Shown here one piece after another: positions 919-64,000 of a DNA stretch of 64,000 nucleotides; position 1 is the stretch's first letter, and the number at the start of each line of letters is the position of its first letter. Below the pieces are notes generated by a model. The model was not told where the DNA came from and searched no databases. It was given only the letters and a program-made list of their open reading frames with translations. A program made the translations under genes and the position numbers. The DNA is from an uncultured Ruminococcus sp. (GTDB lineage Bacteria; Bacillota; Clostridia; Oscillospirales; Acutalibacteraceae). The stretch covers positions 20,310-84,309 of the forward strand of contig CADBCC010000004.1 of the NCBI GenBank assembly GCA_902793125.1. Direction: 5' to 3'.

Positions 919-3450
919 ATGAGAAAAGCAAAACAATTTATAAGCGTATTTCTTTGTGTATTGCTCGGCGTTTCAACTTTTGTTATAAGCGCCCGGGCTA
1001 AAGATACAAGAAAATATGTAAAATCAATCAGCGTAAAAAAGAAAGCAACCGTTACAATCCCCGCCTCAAAGAAAAAGATTGTAAAAACTTTTAAGGTTAA
1101 TGTAAAAGTTAACGGTAAAGCTTCCGCGAAATTTACAGCGAAATCAAGCAAGAAATCCGTCGCTACCGTAAAAGTAAGCGGAAAGAAAATTAAAGTTACG
1201 GCTAAAAAAGCAGGTAAGGTTAAGATTAAAGTTACCACAAAAGCAAAAAATCTTAAAAAGAAAAAGCTCAGCAAAACTCTTACTCTTACCGTTAAAAAAG
1301 CTAAGAAAAAGAGCAATAACTCTAATCCCGCTCCGACTCCGGCTCAAGCTCCCACAGAGGCTCCCACAGAAGCTCCTACAGCTGCTCCCGAGCCCGGCAC
1401 GACCGAAGCTCCGACGCAAGCTACCACAGAAGCCGATACGGAAGAACCGACTGACGAACCCGATCCGGATCTTCCCGCGAGGATAGAGCCCGAAAGTTTA
1501 AATATTGATCTTAAATATTCAAATTACAGCAAAAACGATATGATGTCTTTTGCAAGAGACAGCGCCATAGGTTCTATCGCTTACCCCAAAAGTAACGCTG
1601 AGTATACTTTCGATATTGCCGACACAAGCGTTGTTAAACTTACTGAAGACGTAGACGGCGAAAAGTTTTTCTGTTCCGCGGGTGTGGGACAAACTACCGT
1701 AGATGTTTTTGAACAGTTCCCCGGAGAAGAAAAGACCAAGTTAGGAACAATCAATATCAAAGTAACGGAAGCTACAATGTCCGAGGTTTGCGAAGAAGCT
1801 TTCTCAAATTATACCGAAACTGATTATGTGAGCGTTTCGCTTAAATTGGACTTCGATATAAAAAGCTTTGACCTCGGAGCTGTTATAAAAAAAGTCCTCG
1901 GCGAATCGGAAGATATAGGAGTTCAATTTAGCGATAAAGACTATACTGTTTCTTATCAATCCGAAAACGAAAAGGTCGCTGTAGTTGATGATAAGGGCTT
2001 AATTTCAGGCGTTAAAAACGGCGAAACCCAGATACCTTACGCTATAAAGTTCAGCGATAATTCGGTTGACGAAGAGTTGTTATCCGTAACCGTTAAAGGA
2101 AACGCAATTGAGCATGTTGACGGTTATACAATCGATAATGTAAGAGACTATATTGTCGGTGTAGATACTCCGGTTAAGCTTAACGACGGTTCGGAAACTC
2201 CGCTCGTAAACTTCGATAACGCCGCCACAACTCCCGCGTTTAAAGCTGTTCAAGACGCTGTAAACAAGGAACTTGAGATGTACGGCTCTATAGGAAGAGG
2301 CTTCTCCCAGAAATCAAACCACTCAACTGATGTTTATAACAATACAAGAGATAAGGTGCTCCAATTCCTTACGGCAGATCCCGATTTATACACCTGTTTC
2401 TACGTTAATTCCACAACCGACGGTCTTAACAAACTCGCTTCCGCTTTAGTTGAAAGCGAAGACGATATCGTGCTTACAACCCGAATTGAGCATCACGCTA
2501 ACGACCTCAGCTGGCGTGAACGCTGTAAGGTAATTTACGCGGAGGTTGACGAAAAGGGCAGAGTAATCTACGACGATATCGAAAGACTCTTAAAAGAAAA
2601 CAAGGTAAAAATCGTTTCAATTTCGGCGGCATCCAATGTTACAGGCTACGTTGACGATGTCCATAGAGTTGCTAAAATGGCGCATAAATACGGCGCTAAA
2701 ATCGTTGTTGACGGCGCTCAGATCGTCGCCCACAGAAAGTTCTATATGATGGGCGATTTAGACGATCCCGATGATGATATCGACTTTATTGCTTTCTCGG
2801 CGCACAAAATGTATTCTCCCTACGGCGGCGGAGCTGTTGTAGGTCTTACCGAGGAACTCAACCAGCATATGCCGGAATTCTACGGCGGCGGAACAATCAA
2901 AGTCGTAGGCGATGACTGGCAGGTTTATAAGGAAGCTCCCGCGGCATACGAGGCGGGCTCGCCGAACTATCCCGGAGTTGTAGGTTTAGGTAAGGCGATT
3001 GATGTTCTTACAACAATCGGTATGGATAAAATCGAAGCTCACGAAAAAGTTCTTAACCGAAAGCTTATCGACGGACTTGAAAAGCTCCCGAACGTTATTC
3101 TCTACGGCGATACTGTTAATATAGACGACAGGGTAGGCGTAATAAGCTTTAACTTCAGCGATATTAATACTATGCTGCTTGCGGAACAGTTAAGCGGTCT
3201 CGGCGGAGTTGCCACAAGACGCGGAGCGTTCTGTGCTCATCCGTATGTATGGAGACTTATGGGCATTGACGACGAAACAGTCCGCGGTTTTGAAAACTGT
3301 TCGGACGCCAATACAGCGGGTATGATTCGTGTAAGTTTCGGAATTTATAATAACGAGGAAGAAATTGATAAGCTCCTTGACCTTATGCCCGCGGCAATGC
3401 AGGCGGCGAAAGACGCTAACAAGGACGGAGATATTAAACCCGAGTATTAA
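919..3450 (+). CDS. secreted protein: Ig-like modules fused to a SufS/class V aminotransferase domain
   Basis: An 843-residue protein; AAGGAG lies just upstream of ATG 919. Residues 1-28 form a signal peptide (basic start, hydrophobic core, A-R-A end). Residues about 30-130 are a lysine-rich BIG2-like Ig module. Residues about 135-185 are a Pro/Thr/Glu linker. Residues about 190-400 hold beta-rich and BIG2-like modules. Residues 431-835 are a full class V aminotransferase / cysteine desulfurase fold: N-F-D-N-A-A-T-T-P at 431, E-H-H-A-N with His525/526, S-A-H-K with the predicted PLP lysine at Lys630, Y-E-A-G-S-P-N, and R-R-G-A-F-C-A-H-P with Cys772 where SufS has its catalytic cysteine. SufS enzymes are normally about 400 residues and cytosolic. 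Export is therefore odd, because PLP must be loaded before or after secretion. Substrate unknown. No sorting signal is present. Confidence 0.85.
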   Translation: MRKAKQFISVFLCVLLGVSTFVISARAKDTRKYVKSISVKKKATVTIPASKKKIVKTFKVNVKVNGKASAKFTAKSSKKSVATVKVSGKKIKVTAKKAGKVKIKVTTKAKNLKKKKLSKTLTLTVKKAKKKSNNSNPAPTPAQAPTEAPTEAPTAAPEPGTTEAPTQATTEADTEEPTDEPDPDLPARIEPESLNIDLKYSNYSKNDMMSFARDSAIGSIAYPKSNAEYTFDIADTSVVKLTEDVDGEKFFCSAGVGQTTVDVFEQFPGEEKTKLGTINIKVTEATMSEVCEEAFSNYTETDYVSVSLKLDFDIKSFDLGAVIKKVLGESEDIGVQFSDKDYTVSYQSENEKVAVVDDKGLISGVKNGETQIPYAIKFSDNSVDEELLSVTVKGNAIEHVDGYTIDNVRDYIVGVDTPVKLNDGSETPLVNFDNAATTPAFKAVQDAVNKELEMYGSIGRGFSQKSNHSTDVYNNTRDKVLQFLTADPDLYTCFYVNSTTDGLNKLASALVESEDDIVLTTRIEHHANDLSWRERCKVIYAEVDEKGRVIYDDIERLLKENKVKIVSISAASNVTGYVDDVHRVAKMAHKYGAKIVVDGAQIVAHRKFYMMGDLDDPDDDIDFIAFSAHKMYSPYGGGAVVGLTEELNQHMPEFYGGGTIKVVGDDWQVYKEAPAAYEAGSPNYPGVVGLGKAIDVLTTIGMDKIEAHEKVLNRKLIDGLEKLPNVILYGDTVNIDDRVGVISFNFSDINTMLLAEQLSGLGGVATRRGAFCAHPYVWRLMGIDDETVRGFENCSDANTAGMIRVSFGIYNNEEEIDKLLDLMPAAMQAAKDANKDGDIKPEY

Positions 3451-58245: not shown

Positions 58246-58274
58246 TTGAAAATACTTTTAAAATATGTTAAACT
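58246..58274 (+). promoter_or_regulatory. promoter of surface cassette copy A
   Basis: TTGAAA (58246-58251), a 17-base spacer, and TAAACT (58269-58274). The predicted start is near 58281, the first base of the leader hairpins. The stretch before it (58093-58245) is A/T rich and holds no gene. Confidence 0.55.
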
Positions 58275-58280
58275 ATCTAC

Positions 58281-58481
58281 AAGTATAGTACAACTATGCT
58301 TATACGCATTGTATATCGACGCGTAATATATAATGCGGGTCGGATGGGGTAGAGCCCCGCCCTGCTTTAAATAGCAAGCGGTATGTTTTTTCAATTTTGA
58401 AATCTCACGGTCAGATATTGCGGGAATTATATCCGATAAAAATTTCATTAGGAAAAAATTTATGAAAGGAATGATATTCCT
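58281..58481 (+). promoter_or_regulatory. structured leader RNA, copy A
   Basis: About 200 nt of untranslated leader aligned along nearly its whole length with the leader at 61011-61207. Hairpins in order: AAGTATAGT / ACTATGCTT; CGCATTGTATAT / ATATATAATGCG with loop CGACGCGTA; a GGGG / CCCC stem only in this copy; TGCT-TTAAAT-AGCA; TTTCAA / TTGAAA; GATAT / ATATC. An outer stem TCGGAT / ATCCGA encloses the later ones. The conserved unpaired segment CACGGTCAGATATTGCGGG precedes the ribosome binding site AAAGGAATGAT. No known riboswitch class is recognised. Confidence 0.65.
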
Positions 58482-60560
58482 ATGAGAATGACAAAGAAAA
58501 TTACTTCTATCGTACTTGCTGTACTGATGGTAGTTTCTATGATGTCCGTTATGGCTGTTAGCGCAAGTGCGGCTACTTACGTAGCTAAGATTAACGATAC
58601 ACCGTACGAGACACTCGAAGATGCTTTCGCTGCTGCGGTTGACGGCGACACAATTACAGTACTCGCTGACTGCGCAGGCAACGGTATCAAGACTCCGCAG
58701 GGCAAGTTCGGCACTAACGGTCTTACTGTTGACTTCAATGGTCACACCTACACAATCGACGGCGATCTCGTTGGTTCTACAGGAACACAGACACTTGCGT
58801 TCCAGCTTCTTAAGGATAATAAGATTACTTTCAAGGATGGTACTATCTATTCCGAAAAAGCTAAGATGCTCGTTCAGAACTACAGTGATCTTACACTCGA
58901 CGGTATGACACTTACACTTGATAACCCCAACTATTATCCGTCCTACACACTCTCGAACAACAACGGCAACGTTGTTATCGACGACACAACTATCAACGCT
59001 AACCCCGCAGGCGGCTATGCGTTTGACGTATGCCGTTATTCAAGCTATCCCTCAGTTAACGTTACAGTTAAGGGCAACAGCGTAATCAACGGTGACGTTG
59101 AAATGAGCGCTTCCAAGAGCGATCCTAAGGACGGCTTCTCGCTTACACTTGAAAGCGGTGAAATAAAAGGTACAGTAGTAGTTGACCCGACTGCTCAGAC
59201 TGCGCTGGGCGAGTCTTCTCCTGAAGCTTGTTACACAAAAGATGCTGGTTTCGATATTTACGTAGCTGAGATCGGCACTAATAAGTACGCTACTCTCGAA
59301 GCTGCTTTCGCGGCTGCTACTGACGGCGACACTATCAAAGTAGTTGCTGATTGTGCAGGCAACGGTATCAAAGTAACTCCCGCAGGCAAATTCGCTACAG
59401 GTCTTACGGTTGACTTCGACGGTCATACTTATACAGTAGACGGCGAGACAGTAGGTTCCCCGGGAACAGAAACACTTGCGTTCCAGCTCCTTAAAAATAA
59501 TAAGGTTACATTCAAGAATGGTACACTTTATTCCGAAAAAGCTAAGATGCTTGTTCAGAACTATTGCGACCTTACTCTTGATAATATGACTCTTACACTT
59601 AATAACACAAGCTACAACGGAGCTTATACACTGTCTAACAACAACGGTAACACAGTTATCAAGGATACTACTATCAACGCTAACCCGACAACAGGCAGCT
59701 ATGCGTTTGACGTATGCCGTTATTCAAGCTATCCGTCCGTTAACGTAACAGTTACAGGCGCCAGCAAAATCAACGGTGACGTTGAGGTGTTCGCTTCCAA
59801 GAGCGATCCTAAGAACGGCTTCTCACTTACACTCGAAAGCGGTACAATGACAGGCGATATCGTTCTTGATAAGACTGCTCAGAATGTAATTGCGGCTACT
59901 CCCGAAAAGGTTGAAGTTACCAAGAAGAATACATTCAGCCAGGAAGCTCCTTTAGGCTACGAGTGGAAAGATAATGGCGACGGCACAAGCTCGATTATCG
60001 TCGCTGAATCTAACCCGCTTGATCCGATCGAAAAGCTTGCAGCTGATATCAACGACGGCAACGCATTCGAGATTAATTCTGATTACCTTAAAGGCACACT
60101 CTTAGGCGTACAGAAGAAAAATGCTGTTGACGACGCTGAAATTACTTCCGAATCCCATCAGGAAAACGGTAGCGATATGCGTTTCGTAGCTGTTCTTGAT
60201 AAGGACTTACTTGACGACGCTGACGATTACGGATTCGTACTTGCTAAAGTCGGCACAAATAAGACTTGCGCTAATACAAACTTTGATAATCTTAAAGTTA
60301 ATATGGGCAACGGCGAAAAGACAATCTCCGCTAAGGGCACATACAATACAGTATGCGGCACAGAGTACGGCGATCCCGCTTCCGCTACACCTTACAAGTA
60401 TATCACTTGCGCGGTAAACAGCGTTGATGATTCTTCAAAGATCGTAGCACGTTTCTATTATAAGAAGGACGGTAAGACTTACTACGCTAAGTATGCAGGT
60501 CATAACTATCAGTACACAGGTTGTACGGCAGGCATTAACGTCTCCGGCAACATTTATTAA
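58482..60560 (+). CDS. secreted tandem-repeat beta-helix-like protein (cassette copy A)
   Basis: A 692-residue protein. Signal peptide 1-30 (M-R-M-T-K-K-I-T-S-I-V-L-A-V ... A-S-A). Two homologous repeats of 227 residues (about 31-257 and 258-495), each opening with Y-x-T-L-E-x-A-F-A-A-A-x-D-G-D-T-I and continuing with short beta strands and N-G-T / T-I-N-A-N motifs, as in right-handed beta-helix surface proteins. A linker and a shared C-terminal domain (about 515-692) follow, with G-S-D-M-R-F-V-A-V-L-D and D-D-Y-G-F-V-L-A-K-V-G, also found at 61208 and at the left edge. No LPXTG, dockerin or catalytic motif is seen. The start is fixed by the ribosome binding site and by identity with the paralogue. 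Role unknown; adhesion or glycan binding is a guess. Confidence 0.85.
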   Translation: MRMTKKITSIVLAVLMVVSMMSVMAVSASAATYVAKINDTPYETLEDAFAAAVDGDTITVLADCAGNGIKTPQGKFGTNGLTVDFNGHTYTIDGDLVGSTGTQTLAFQLLKDNKITFKDGTIYSEKAKMLVQNYSDLTLDGMTLTLDNPNYYPSYTLSNNNGNVVIDDTTINANPAGGYAFDVCRYSSYPSVNVTVKGNSVINGDVEMSASKSDPKDGFSLTLESGEIKGTVVVDPTAQTALGESSPEACYTKDAGFDIYVAEIGTNKYATLEAAFAAATDGDTIKVVADCAGNGIKVTPAGKFATGLTVDFDGHTYTVDGETVGSPGTETLAFQLLKNNKVTFKNGTLYSEKAKMLVQNYCDLTLDNMTLTLNNTSYNGAYTLSNNNGNTVIKDTTINANPTTGSYAFDVCRYSSYPSVNVTVTGASKINGDVEVFASKSDPKNGFSLTLESGTMTGDIVLDKTAQNVIAATPEKVEVTKKNTFSQEAPLGYEWKDNGDGTSSIIVAESNPLDPIEKLAADINDGNAFEINSDYLKGTLLGVQKKNAVDDAEITSESHQENGSDMRFVAVLDKDLLDDADDYGFVLAKVGTNKTCANTNFDNLKVNMGNGEKTISAKGTYNTVCGTEYGDPASATPYKYITCAVNSVDDSSKIVARFYYKKDGKTYYAKYAGHNYQYTGCTAGINVSGNIY

Positions 60561-60574
60561 GGAAGGAGATAAAA

Positions 60575-60742
60575 ATGAAAGAATTATATAAGTCTCCTGT
60601 AATTACAGTAGAAGATTTAGCAAAGGCTGACGTACTCTGCGCTTCCACAGAGCAGAATAACGGACAGTATGACTCTTCCAAGAGAGTTGATAACATTAAC
60701 CAGCTCGCTTCCACAATCGGAGATATGTCCGGATTACTGTAA
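60575..60742 (+). CDS. small cassette protein with P-x-I-x-V-E-x-L-x-K-A-D-V-L core
   Basis: A 55-residue protein with GGAAGGAG just upstream of ATG 60575, 14 bases after the surface-protein stop. Residues 7-22 read SPVITVEDLAKADVLC, matching the partner at 264-446; the second half is rich in Asn, Gln and Ser and ends D-M-S-G-L-L. There is no signal peptide. The gene lies before a strong terminator, so the pair is one transcription unit. The recurrence after two surface genes supports it as a real gene. Function unknown. Confidence 0.8.
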   Translation: MKELYKSPVITVEDLAKADVLCASTEQNNGQYDSSKRVDNINQLASTIGDMSGLL

Positions 60743-60765
60743 TCCTTAAGGGAAAAATTAAATTT

Positions 60766-60793
60766 CAGCCGGCGGTTTTGCGACCGCCGGCTG
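60766..60793 (+). terminator. terminator of cassette copy A
   Basis: CAGCCGGCGGT and ACCGCCGGCTG perfect arms, followed by six T. Confidence 0.93.
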
Positions 60794-60976: not shown

Positions 60977-61005
60977 TTGAATTATCTTTTTAAATTTGAT
61001 ATAAT
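60977..61005 (+). promoter_or_regulatory. promoter of surface cassette copy B
   Basis: TTGAAT (60977-60982), a 17-base spacer, and TATAAT (61000-61005). The predicted start is near 61012, at the first leader hairpin. Between the terminator and this promoter (60794-60976) no gene is seen. Confidence 0.7.
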
Positions 61006-61010
61006 TCTTA

Positions 61011-61207
61011 AAGTATAGTGATACTATGCTTAAACGCATTGTATATCGACGCGTAATATATAATGCGTATCGGATTAAAAGCCCTGTTTTAAATAACAGG
61101 CGGTATGATTTTTCAATTCTGAAATATCACGGTCAGATATTGCGGGTAAATATCCGATAATCTTTATTAGAAAAATGAATTAAATTTATGAAAGGAGTGA
61201 TTCTCTT
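61011..61207 (+). promoter_or_regulatory. structured leader RNA, copy B
   Basis: The same architecture as 58281-58481. The second hairpin is identical. In the third, CCTGTT-TTAAAT-AACAGG replaces copy A's TGCT / AGCA pairing, so a C-G pair has become T-A, which is a compensatory change. The GGGG / CCCC insert of copy A is absent. The outer stem TATCGGAT / ATCCGATA is extended to eight pairs. AAAGGAGTGAT precedes the ATG. Confidence 0.65.
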
Positions 61208-64000
61208 ATGAGAATGACAAAGAAAATTACATCAATCGTTCTCGCGGTAATGATGGTCGTTTCTATGATGTCTGTAATGGCTGTTACAGCTAACGCAATC
61301 GGCGAGGTTGTGCCGGAGAGTAAATATCTGACATTTACGGCGGAAGAAGCCAATTCTTCGGTTACGCTGAAATTTAGATACGGCAGTAATTTTAAGTATA
61401 ATAAAAACGACTCAGGTTGGCAAGATTATACTAAAGGCACGCAGATCACGCTCAACGACGTGGGCGATTATGTTCGTTTTAGCGGAAAAGATGCTGAATT
61501 CAATGACTATAATCACTTTTCGCTCACCGGAAAAGTAGCGGCAAGCGGTAACGTTATGTCGCTGAGGCTCGACGACAACGGCAAGAGCCAAGGCTTGATC
61601 AATTATTGCTATCAATATATGTTTAGCGACTGCACCAGCTTAACTCAAGCGCCGGAGCTGCCTGAAACAACGCTGGCGACGTATTGCTACGGAGCTATGT
61701 TTGTTGGCTGCACGAATCTGACCAAAGCTCCCGATCTTCCCGCGACAAATCTGGCGGATTACTGCTACAGATATATGTTTAGAGGCTGCGAGAACCTGAC
61801 CGAACTCCCCGCGCTTCGTGCGACAACGCTGGCGGATAACTGCTACGCCTATATGTTTTATGGCTGCTCGAAAATTCGTATTTCTGACGTGGCAGGTACC
61901 TTTGATGGAATTACATATTCAGCCGAATACAGGATCCCGTCCACAGGCACGGGAACTTCGGCAGAGGATGCACTCGATGATATGTTCGGTAACACCGGCG
62001 GTAAATTTGAAGGAACTCCGAACATCAACACGACCTATTATCTTCCTGCGCCCGCTCCCGCTACTCCCAAGGTAGCTGAGGTTAACGGTACACAGTACGA
62101 TACTCTCGAAGAAGCTCTCGCGGCTGCTCCCTCAGGCGCTACTGTTAAGCTTCTTGAGGACATCGACTTTAGCGAGGTTACTACTAACAGAAACGCTCAC
62201 GACACTGGCGACGAACTTACGATTGACCTTAAAGACCTTACTCTCGATTTAAATGGTAAGACTATTACTACTGTAAACGCTTCCGTAGTATTTACAGGTA
62301 ACGGCGCTACTATCGAGAACGGTAACTTTGCGCTTAAACATGTTAAAGCTGACGGAACAACATATCAGGCAGGTTCCTACGGTCTTTGTATCGACGGTTA
62401 CGACAAAACGAACTCTATCACACTCAACGACCTTACTGTTGAGGGCGGTATCAATATCTGGGACGCCGACGTTGTAATCAACGACGTTACAGCTACAGCG
62501 ACAGCTTCTAACTTCTATGCTATCTGGGCAGAGGGTAACTCCAATGTAGTTGTTAACAGCGGTACGTTCAGCGATAACGGCACCGCTAAAGCAAAAGGTC
62601 CTATCGCTACCGAAAAATCAGGCACAGGAACATTAGTTACAGTAAAAGGCGGTACATTCAACGCTACAAACAAGGTTGTTAACGCCGCTGCTCCCGGATC
62701 CGTTAAATTCGAGGGCGGTACATGTACTAAGCCTGTTCCCGAGCAGTATTGCGCTGACGGTTATATTCCGAAGGATAACGGTAACAATACCTACGGCGTA
62801 AAGGTTGGCACTTATGTTGCTCAGGTAGGCACAACTAAGTACGAGAACCTCCAGGACGCTCTTGACGTTGTTCCCGACGGCGGTACAGTTACTGTTCTTA
62901 AAGATATTGCGACAAGCGGAAATATCTTTGCCGATGGCTATGTAAGCGGCGGTAACAGAACTTACACTGTAGACCTCGGCGGTTATACTGTTTCAGGCGC
63001 TACATTTATTGTTGATAGCGGTAACAACGTAACCTTTAAAAACGGTACAATCGAATCCGCTACTTACGGTATTCAGAATAAAGCTACAGCTACTGTAGAT
63101 TCTACAGCTACAGTTAAGTCAACAAGCGCTTCTGCATCCGCTGTATACGGCGCGGCAGGTTCTACAACTAACATCAACGGTACAGTTGAAGGCAACAAGT
63201 ACGGCGTTATCGTAAGAGGCGGTACACTTAACGTTGCTGGTGAAGTTACAGCTGTTAATACAGGTATCGACGCAATTGACGGCGGTATTGCAAATCTCAA
63301 CGACGGCGCTGATGTTAGCGGCAAATTCGCTATTGTAGCTCATAAGGACTCTACTGTTAATGTAAACGGCGGTAATGTTGAAGGTACAAGCCACGCTGTT
63401 TCAGGTAACGGAAAAGCGGCTGACGGCCCTTATACAATCAACGTAACAGGCGGTACTCTTACTGCTACAGACGGCGCGGCTATCTATAACCCGAACGCAA
63501 CAGGAACTATGAATATTTCCGGCGGTACAATCACAGGTTCAACATCTGCTGTAACAGCTGGCGCTGACAGCACAAACAGTATCTCAGGCGGTACTTTTAA
63601 CACACCTGTTCCCGAGGAATATTGCGCTAACGGATATGTTCCGAAGGATAACGGCAACGGCACTTACGGTGTAGGTCCCGATACTTCAAGCCCGCTTAAT
63701 CCTCTTATGGTAGCTGCTGCTGATATCAACGACCACAACGCGTTCGAAATTAACTCTGATTACCTCAGAGGCACACTCTTAGGCGTACAGAAGAAAAATG
63801 CTATTGACGACGCTGAAATTACTTCCGAATCCCATCAGGAAAACGGCAGCGATATGCGTTTCGTAGCTGTTCTTGATACTGATTTAGTTCAGGATGCTGA
63901 CGATTACGGTTTCGTACTCGCTAAAGTCGGCACAAATAAGAATTGCGCTAATACAAACTTTGATAATCTTAAGGTTGATATGGGCAACGGAGAAAAGACA
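61208..64000 (+). CDS. large secreted surface protein with LRR, beta-helix repeats and shared C-terminal domain (3' end beyond the window)
   Basis: An open frame from ATG 61208 to the window end, at least 931 residues. The signal peptide is nearly identical to that at 58482. Residues about 30-275 contain three to four leucine-rich-type repeats (L-P-x-T-x-L-A-x-Y-C-Y-x-x-M-F-x-G-C-x-x-L-T). Residues about 290-825 contain two beta-helix-like arrays opened by Y-D-T-L-E-E-A-L-A-A-A and Y-E-N-L-Q-D-A-L-D, each ending with P-V-P-E-x-Y-C-A-x-G-Y-x-P-K-D-N-G. From about 830 the shared C-terminal domain begins. Part of the LRR region uses CTG and GCG codons more than its surroundings, which suggests module shuffling. 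A small partner gene is expected just beyond the edge. Confidence 0.85.
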   Translation, partial: MRMTKKITSIVLAVMMVVSMMSVMAVTANAIGEVVPESKYLTFTAEEANSSVTLKFRYGSNFKYNKNDSGWQDYTKGTQITLNDVGDYVRFSGKDAEFNDYNHFSLTGKVAASGNVMSLRLDDNGKSQGLINYCYQYMFSDCTSLTQAPELPETTLATYCYGAMFVGCTNLTKAPDLPATNLADYCYRYMFRGCENLTELPALRATTLADNCYAYMFYGCSKIRISDVAGTFDGITYSAEYRIPSTGTGTSAEDALDDMFGNTGGKFEGTPNINTTYYLPAPAPATPKVAEVNGTQYDTLEEALAAAPSGATVKLLEDIDFSEVTTNRNAHDTGDELTIDLKDLTLDLNGKTITTVNASVVFTGNGATIENGNFALKHVKADGTTYQAGSYGLCIDGYDKTNSITLNDLTVEGGINIWDADVVINDVTATATASNFYAIWAEGNSNVVVNSGTFSDNGTAKAKGPIATEKSGTGTLVTVKGGTFNATNKVVNAAAPGSVKFEGGTCTKPVPEQYCADGYIPKDNGNNTYGVKVGTYVAQVGTTKYENLQDALDVVPDGGTVTVLKDIATSGNIFADGYVSGGNRTYTVDLGGYTVSGATFIVDSGNNVTFKNGTIESATYGIQNKATATVDSTATVKSTSASASAVYGAAGSTTNINGTVEGNKYGVIVRGGTLNVAGEVTAVNTGIDAIDGGIANLNDGADVSGKFAIVAHKDSTVNVNGGNVEGTSHAVSGNGKAADGPYTINVTGGTLTATDGAAIYNPNATGTMNISGGTITGSTSAVTAGADSTNSISGGTFNTPVPEEYCANGYVPKDNGNGTYGVGPDTSSPLNPLMVAAADINDHNAFEINSDYLRGTLLGVQKKNAIDDAEITSESHQENGSDMRFVAVLDTDLVQDADDYGFVLAKVGTNKNCANTNFDNLKVDMGNGEKT

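Follow-up and report, generated by a model that had tools for sequence, protein, structure and literature searches.

Small YxxP peptides encoded behind large secreted proteins in Ruminococcus: candidate precursors of a PqqD-guided pathway

The window analysed here is a 64,000-nucleotide (nt) stretch of an uncultured Ruminococcus sp. genome (positions 20310-84309 of contig C4, CADBCC010000004.1; the assembly comprises 2.0 Mb in 51 contigs), and our subject is a forward-strand cassette in which a large secreted protein is followed by a very small one. One copy opens with a promoter-like site (58246-58274; TTGAAA-17-TAAACT, with TG before the second hexamer) and a structured leader RNA (58301-58440). 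The gene that follows (58482-60560) encodes a 692-amino-acid (aa) protein with a signal peptide and two internal repeats in its translation, and its last part (59988-60557) is a C-terminal domain region common to the cassette proteins. The gene for a 55-aa peptide (60575-60742) begins 14 nt later, and a terminator-like hairpin (60766-60793; 12 pairs, nine of them G-C, and a T tail) closes the unit. The next cassette has its own promoter-like site (60977-61005; TTGAAT-17-TATAAT, again with the TG), a second copy of the leader RNA (61031-61161) and a large secreted protein gene (61208-64000). The small partner of this gene cannot be seen, because the gene runs off both the window and contig C4. 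Both promoter-like sites come from a consensus scan, which returned 18 sites in the region versus 8.7 in its shuffles. At the left edge of the window, the C-terminal end of another large protein (2-253; 842 aa in the contig) is followed at 255-446 by a small gene (63 aa from GTG, 60 aa from ATG at 264). A preliminary description made from the sequence of the window had reported the large-then-small gene order at these two places and a third large gene at 61208, all as we find them. The ends of contigs C4, C34, C43 and C10 all fall inside copies of the cassette, as repeats do. The cassette is confirmed as genuine and recurrent, and it extends beyond the window.

Both small proteins in the window carry the core P-x-I-x-V-E-x-L-x-K-A-D-V-L. 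Across the family, an N-terminal block of 24 residues, M-K-x-x-Y-x-x-P-x-I-x-V-E-x-L-x-K-x-D-V-L-x-x-S, is conserved and the remainder is variable; in the 55-aa peptide these parts are residues 1-24 (60575-60646) and 25-55. In an alignment (A3) of 64 of the 80 distinct peptides found in the genus, M1, Y5, P8 and D19 are invariant, and K2, L21 and S24 are kept in at least 90% of sequences. A wider alignment of 32 sequences (A11) has the same layout of a short precursor with a conserved N-terminal leader and a variable core. The preliminary description had proposed a recognition part plus a variable part, and the recognition-like block agrees with this. The ratio of nonsynonymous to synonymous substitution rates (dN/dS) is about 0.3 in the small open reading frames (ORFs), at 0.19 for residues 1-24 and 0.32 for those after them, based on 51 close within-group pairs that come from 24 sequences and are not independent. 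Because of this ratio and their recurrence behind large genes in many genomes, the small ORFs are more than chance.

Profile A11 matched 14 peptides in the genome of the window, to which C10:7064 is added. With a narrow seven-sequence profile, 15 of 60 genus genomes had matches at E<=0.01, and a single genome had as many as 19. In 100 genus loci, some of them near-identical copies, a profile search gave 85 matches representing the 80 distinct peptides. Taking as large any same-strand ORF of at least 120 aa, 62 of the 80 peptides start no more than 60 nt from the end of one, and for 74 such an ORF is no more than 600 nt away, with a median gap of 15. Named genomes were scanned with a sequence pattern, which found 38 peptide loci, several of them from genomes of the set above; they are assigned to Ruminococcus sp., Clostridia, Clostridiales or "bacterium," some of them from goat rumen, cattle abomasum and red deer. 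A large ORF accompanies 35 of these, and the other three lie at contig ends. Further genera and families of the class show the same leader pattern and the pairing with large proteins. The adjacency of the two families was therefore rightly called repeated in the preliminary description, which had also named, as grounds for giving up its proposal, small frames that are not conserved and families that are not neighbours elsewhere; genome searches found neither.

Some peptides stand alone. These YxxP peptides occupy the same chromosomal neighbourhoods across genomes, for example beside glmS-like genes (L169, L158 and L181) or near a hydrogenase-like gene (L150 and L168), as named by eye; L073 and L087 are further cases. 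Several share a core of the type E-N-x-Y-x-D-F, as a separate subclass without a large protein. Contig C13 of the same genome carries a tandem pair of YxxP peptide genes (L319, 4152-4459) and, on the opposite strand, a gene for a 479-aa protein; two peptides in a row are also seen in L288 and, by motif, in L302. On contigs C2 and C10 (L180, 4480-5600; L320, 3166-4232), a large protein, an acidic YxxP peptide and a dockerin-like protein follow one another, a gene order that matches the one upstream of PqqD in L127. Two peptide matches (G007:C181:16748 and G007:C163:1875) contain one internal stop each, and some copies thus seem to be decaying.

A simple hydrophobicity rule detected a signal peptide in 20 of the 22 complete large proteins upstream of peptides. 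Searches of Pfam and NCBIfam gave no match over cut-off for the two small proteins or for the large proteins of the cassettes; the protein at 61208 has LRR_5 and PARCEL-repeat matches, both below cut-off. As the preliminary description had it, the large proteins share a C-terminal domain: that of the 692-aa protein is 43% identical to the left-edge protein and 87% identical to the protein at 61208. By eye, large proteins of other cassettes have related but different C-terminal sequences. The AlphaFold2 model of the domain is a beta sandwich (pLDDT 83.8). Compared with solved structures, it gave only weak matches, among them Ig-like, FN3 and CBM56 folds, with a best E of 0.0098; because these are generic and none reaches E<=0.001, we assign no function from the fold. 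The distance between the variable parts of the peptides correlates with the distance between the last 150 residues of their neighbours (r=0.61, and 0.545 after removing leader distance; permutation p=5e-4; 56 non-redundant of the 62 pairs).

The leader RNA had been described as structured, and both an RNA model (R1) and covariation now bear this out for the two copies in the window. A model built from five sequences has 12 matches in 6 of the 60 genus genomes. Seven of them lie directly upstream of a secreted-type large gene followed by a peptide (copy 1 of the window and two each in G007, G015 and G033), and three (copy 2 and two in G005) precede a signal-peptide-like gene start that is cut by a contig end. 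The match on C10 runs straight into the contig end, and the one in G013 is weak (E=0.0038) and has no cassette beside it. Among other named loci, leader RNA, large gene and peptide occur together in L198, L200 and L205, and L206 has the leader RNA and a large gene that ends 50 nt before the end of the sequence. An alignment of 15 copies (A8), one of them the doubtful match in G013, was made to fit the RNA model; standard pairs occupy 93.3% of its pair cells versus 77.3% in shuffles. Both sides change in 29 of 38 pairs, compared to 15.7 in shuffles and 8-10 when partners are slid by 1-3 columns. A plain MAFFT alignment of 12 copies (A9) gave a similar fold with double changes in 18 of 34 pairs. 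Rfam 15 gave no match at gathering score in the window, and only a tRNA elsewhere in nine further leader loci; an Rfam identity was rejected, as wcaG (E=2.3) and the other matches (E>=0.059) are at chance level. The loop G-A-C-G-C-G-U-A and the segment G-G-U-C-A-G-A-U-A-U are conserved, which suggests that a particular ligand or protein is involved. The leader, with its covariation, is a candidate for a new regulatory RNA.

The YxxP of the conserved block is the motif bound by PqqD-type recognition domains in lasso peptide precursors, according to part of PMC12710340; such domains are termed RiPP recognition elements (RREs; RiPP, ribosomally synthesized and post-translationally modified peptide). 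At the genome level, the peptides and PqqD occur together. Within the taxonomic family, peptides were detected in 18 of 120 genomes and PqqD in 69, and all 18 peptide genomes have PqqD (p=1.6e-5). Within the class Clostridia, peptides occur in 23 of 196 genomes and PqqD in 86, with all 23 in common (p=8.9e-10). These 23 genomes span 13 families, 13 of 13 with PqqD (p=5e-4, with the total number of families taken as 67, a lower bound), and it is only through this family count that the co-occurrence tests are corrected for phylogeny. Physical proximity also exceeds expectation: 4 of 32 peptides lie within 2.5 kb of PqqD at the family level (0.14 expected) and 6 of 92 lie within 3.1 kb at the class level (0.47 expected), with both distance limits chosen after the tables were inspected. 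The tie runs strongly one way only, in that a genome with the peptide also has PqqD. Of the PqqD loci, some may act on scattered precursors and others on different products.

The genome of the window has two PqqD loci. On C35, PqqD lies behind a large protein whose C-terminal domain belongs to the same family, and is followed by an S24/S26-like gene and then by an ABC transporter truncated at the contig end. On C21, lipoprotein-like, dockerin and HprK-like proteins precede PqqD and an S24/S26-like gene. PqqD passes PF05402, and its best-scoring NCBIfam models are lasso PqqD chaperones, below their cut-offs. The nearest model to the S24/S26-like protein is an archaeal signal peptidase (1.8e-11, below cut-off). 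Its SMxP, HR and GDN motifs are presumably of the endoplasmic reticulum (ER)/SipW type; residue conservation in this and the HprK-like protein is partly circular, as the search patterns required SMxP, H-[RKQ]-[VI] and the P-loop. Among 20 PqqD loci of the family, 17 of which were picked because their genomes had peptide matches, six have a same-strand peptide within 6 kb, and five of these also have HprK-like and S24/S26-like genes. The neighbourhood of large protein, peptide, HprK-like protein, PqqD and S24/S26-like protein recurs in five genera (L285, L287, L288, L289 and L302). At the class level, genes for a large protein, a peptide and an apparently HprK-like protein follow directly on one another in L328, and L326 and L332 have the same order with one extra gene between. 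ABC exporter, HprK-like and NTP_transf_5 genes are present in some PqqD clusters.

In a second kind of PqqD cluster (L124, 5631-6669; L132, 5047-6232; L134, 555-2135; L138, 7259-8215), lipoprotein-like and dockerin-type proteins lie upstream of HprK-like/PqqD genes. The C-terminal tails of these upstream proteins are short and alike (for example KDNVEVDFNDL and GWDPRIIQP), as though they themselves were recognised.

In combination, these results make a precursor in a PqqD-guided peptide pathway the most likely product of the small gene. The conserved first 24 residues would be the leader and the variable rest the cargo, with the leader bound by the PqqD-type RRE protein through Y-x-x-P-x-I. 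The shared machine would be encoded elsewhere in the genome and would comprise PqqD and the S24/S26 peptidase-like protein, joined in some loci by the HprK-like protein, the NTP_transf_5 protein and the ABC exporter. It is predicted to modify the cargo, to cleave near D-V-[LI]-x-x-S and to export the product. Most precursor genes are paired with that of a single large Sec-secreted surface protein. The cargo tracks the C-terminal domain of the paired protein, and a joint role of the two outside the cell is therefore probable. The structured RNA that heads the unit in one branch probably controls its expression. We give the joint reading, in which the peptides are dispersed precursors of an RRE-guided maturation and export system and most are paired with a surface protein, a probability of roughly 0.6. 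It offers a testable role both for PqqD-type clusters with an unrecognised product and for the widespread proteins of ~35-65 residues, a family as yet unnamed, that are encoded behind large secreted proteins. If it is true, peptide maturation is coupled to surface-protein display. The preliminary description had suggested that the small protein works with the large one, with a processed peptide among its options; that option is supported. It did not include the link to PqqD, HprK-like and S24/S26 proteins, the lasso-like YxxP motif or the peptides that lack an adjacent large gene.

More tentatively, the pathway may be a class-wide one in Clostridia, in which RRE-matured peptides serve surface proteins. 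One to a few PqqD machines would process up to ~19 precursors per genome, most of them paired with their own secreted protein, so that each surface protein is given its own processed peptide to serve as a ligand, signal, plug or cross-link; one branch would have a new regulatory RNA as well.

Several observations weigh against the joint reading. PqqD also occurs in genomes where no peptide was detected (51 of 102 in the family and 63 of 173 in the class), and of the six class-level neighbours of PqqD, the one in G125 matches weakly, contains an internal stop and lies on the opposite strand. All 60 genus genomes have a PqqD match, some only weak and in frames of ~460 aa, and PqqD was thus rejected as a marker at the genus level. 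Neither PqqD locus in the genome of the window has a detected peptide beside it, and by profile none was detected at 14 of 20 family and 18 of 21 genus PqqD loci, although two of these 18 (L125 and L129) carry a peptide by motif. Among short (3 kb) PqqD loci, 29 of 30 are without a peptide, a comparison whose control set came from the genome of the window, included two family members and is hence not clean. A precursor beside PqqD is above chance but not general (6 of 20, 3 of 21 and 1 of 30 loci). No class-defining modification enzyme was identified: the HprK-like and NTP_transf_5 proteins are candidates, the former matches known models only weakly (1.3e-4) and has no Pfam family, and the sole NTP_transf_5 match in the genome of the window lies outside any PqqD cluster. 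By a scripted count, 18 of the 80 peptides of the genus lie more than 60 nt from any large gene, or at least 14 after correction (the start in L151 was mis-set, its true gap being 13 nt, and L027, L067 and L087 are at contig ends). Finally, co-duplication alone can give the correlation between cargo and C-terminal domain.

The weak PqqD matches in many genus genomes lie inside open frames of ~455-495 aa. We assume that those of ~460 aa may be PqqD-fused radical SAM maturases, which belong to a different peptide system.

The tight coupling of small and large genes, the same correlation and the lack of an adjacent peptide at most sampled PqqD loci would also fit a small protein that stays unprocessed in the cytosol as a partner of the large one (an export pilot, or an assembly or anchoring factor), with only an indirect tie to PqqD. 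We consider this unlikely, as it leaves unexplained the co-occurrence with PqqD in 18 of 18 and 23 of 23 genomes, the shared neighbourhoods and the lasso-like YxxP block, and some peptides have no large gene. Those stand-alone copies with their own core type, together with the leader/variable-core layout and the ABC exporter in some clusters, would suit a secreted bacteriocin or signalling family that is matured by the PqqD machine and merely co-expressed with the large protein, with no joint function. This is improbable, as the pairing is repeated in further genera and families of the class and the cargo tracks the C-terminal domain of the neighbour. That these are ordinary paralogous surface genes, each with a duplication relic downstream, would agree with cassette copies at contig ends, like repeats, and with the stops in two genus peptide matches, but it is highly improbable, being already disfavoured by the selection on the leader (dN/dS 0.19) and the rest (0.32) and by conservation of the peptide across genera and families.

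Elsewhere in the window, the gene at 919-3450 (forward strand) encodes a protein of 843 aa that begins with a signal-peptide-like sequence and has a Lys-rich region and an Ig-like (Big_2) domain. It ends in a full-length class-V aminotransferase/SufS-like cysteine desulfurase domain (PF00266, 1.2e-80), and is apparently an extracytoplasmic pyridoxal phosphate (PLP) enzyme.

The closest known systems are the lasso peptide systems of Firmicutes that have separate genes for a PqqD-like protein, an HPr kinase and a nucleotidyltransferase, as described in part of PMC7533575. These systems and the cassettes described here both have a short precursor with a YxxP leader, and the Ruminococcus lasso precursors shown in that part of the source also carry Y-x-x-P. 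The PqqD-like protein here is nearest to lasso chaperone models, and HprK-like, NTP_transf_5 and ABC exporter genes accompany it in some clusters. However, the lasso protease family PF13471 was over cut-off in none of the 60 genus genomes (three weak partial matches), and an S24/S26-like protein stands in its place. Unlike those of lasso systems, the precursors here are dispersed, and most have a large secreted protein as partner. Lasso leaders have a conserved penultimate Thr, according to part of PMC10368454, whereas the 64 sequences of A3 have no conserved Thr column near the leader end. A lasso identity was rejected on the absence of PF13471 over cut-off in the genus, a search that did not cover the asparagine-synthase-like cyclase. 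By gene content, the candidate machine resembles the lasso accessory genes minus the lasso protease. The SynChlorMet (ScmC/ScmD) and HPr-rel-A (TIGR04353 and TIGR04355) cassettes of NCBIfam also combine a PqqD-like protein with an HprK-related or ScmC protein, but the proteins here match those models weakly, far below cut-off.

The candidate pathway shares more general features with RRE-dependent RiPP systems as treated in parts of PMC12710340 and PMC7470986, namely a leader that would be bound by a PqqD-fold RRE, a variable core, an exporter in some clusters and a PqqD-fold protein in all peptide genomes. It differs from them in the coupling to surface proteins, in that no class-defining modification enzyme was identified, and in the excess of precursors over machines, as in G007, which has 19 precursor matches versus three PqqD matches, one of them weak. 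The preliminary description knew of no described system of this form. This holds for the literature that we searched, where we found no description of a surface protein paired with a processed peptide, though absence there is not absence from print; it does not hold for the leader logic of the small peptides, which is that of known RRE-dependent peptides.
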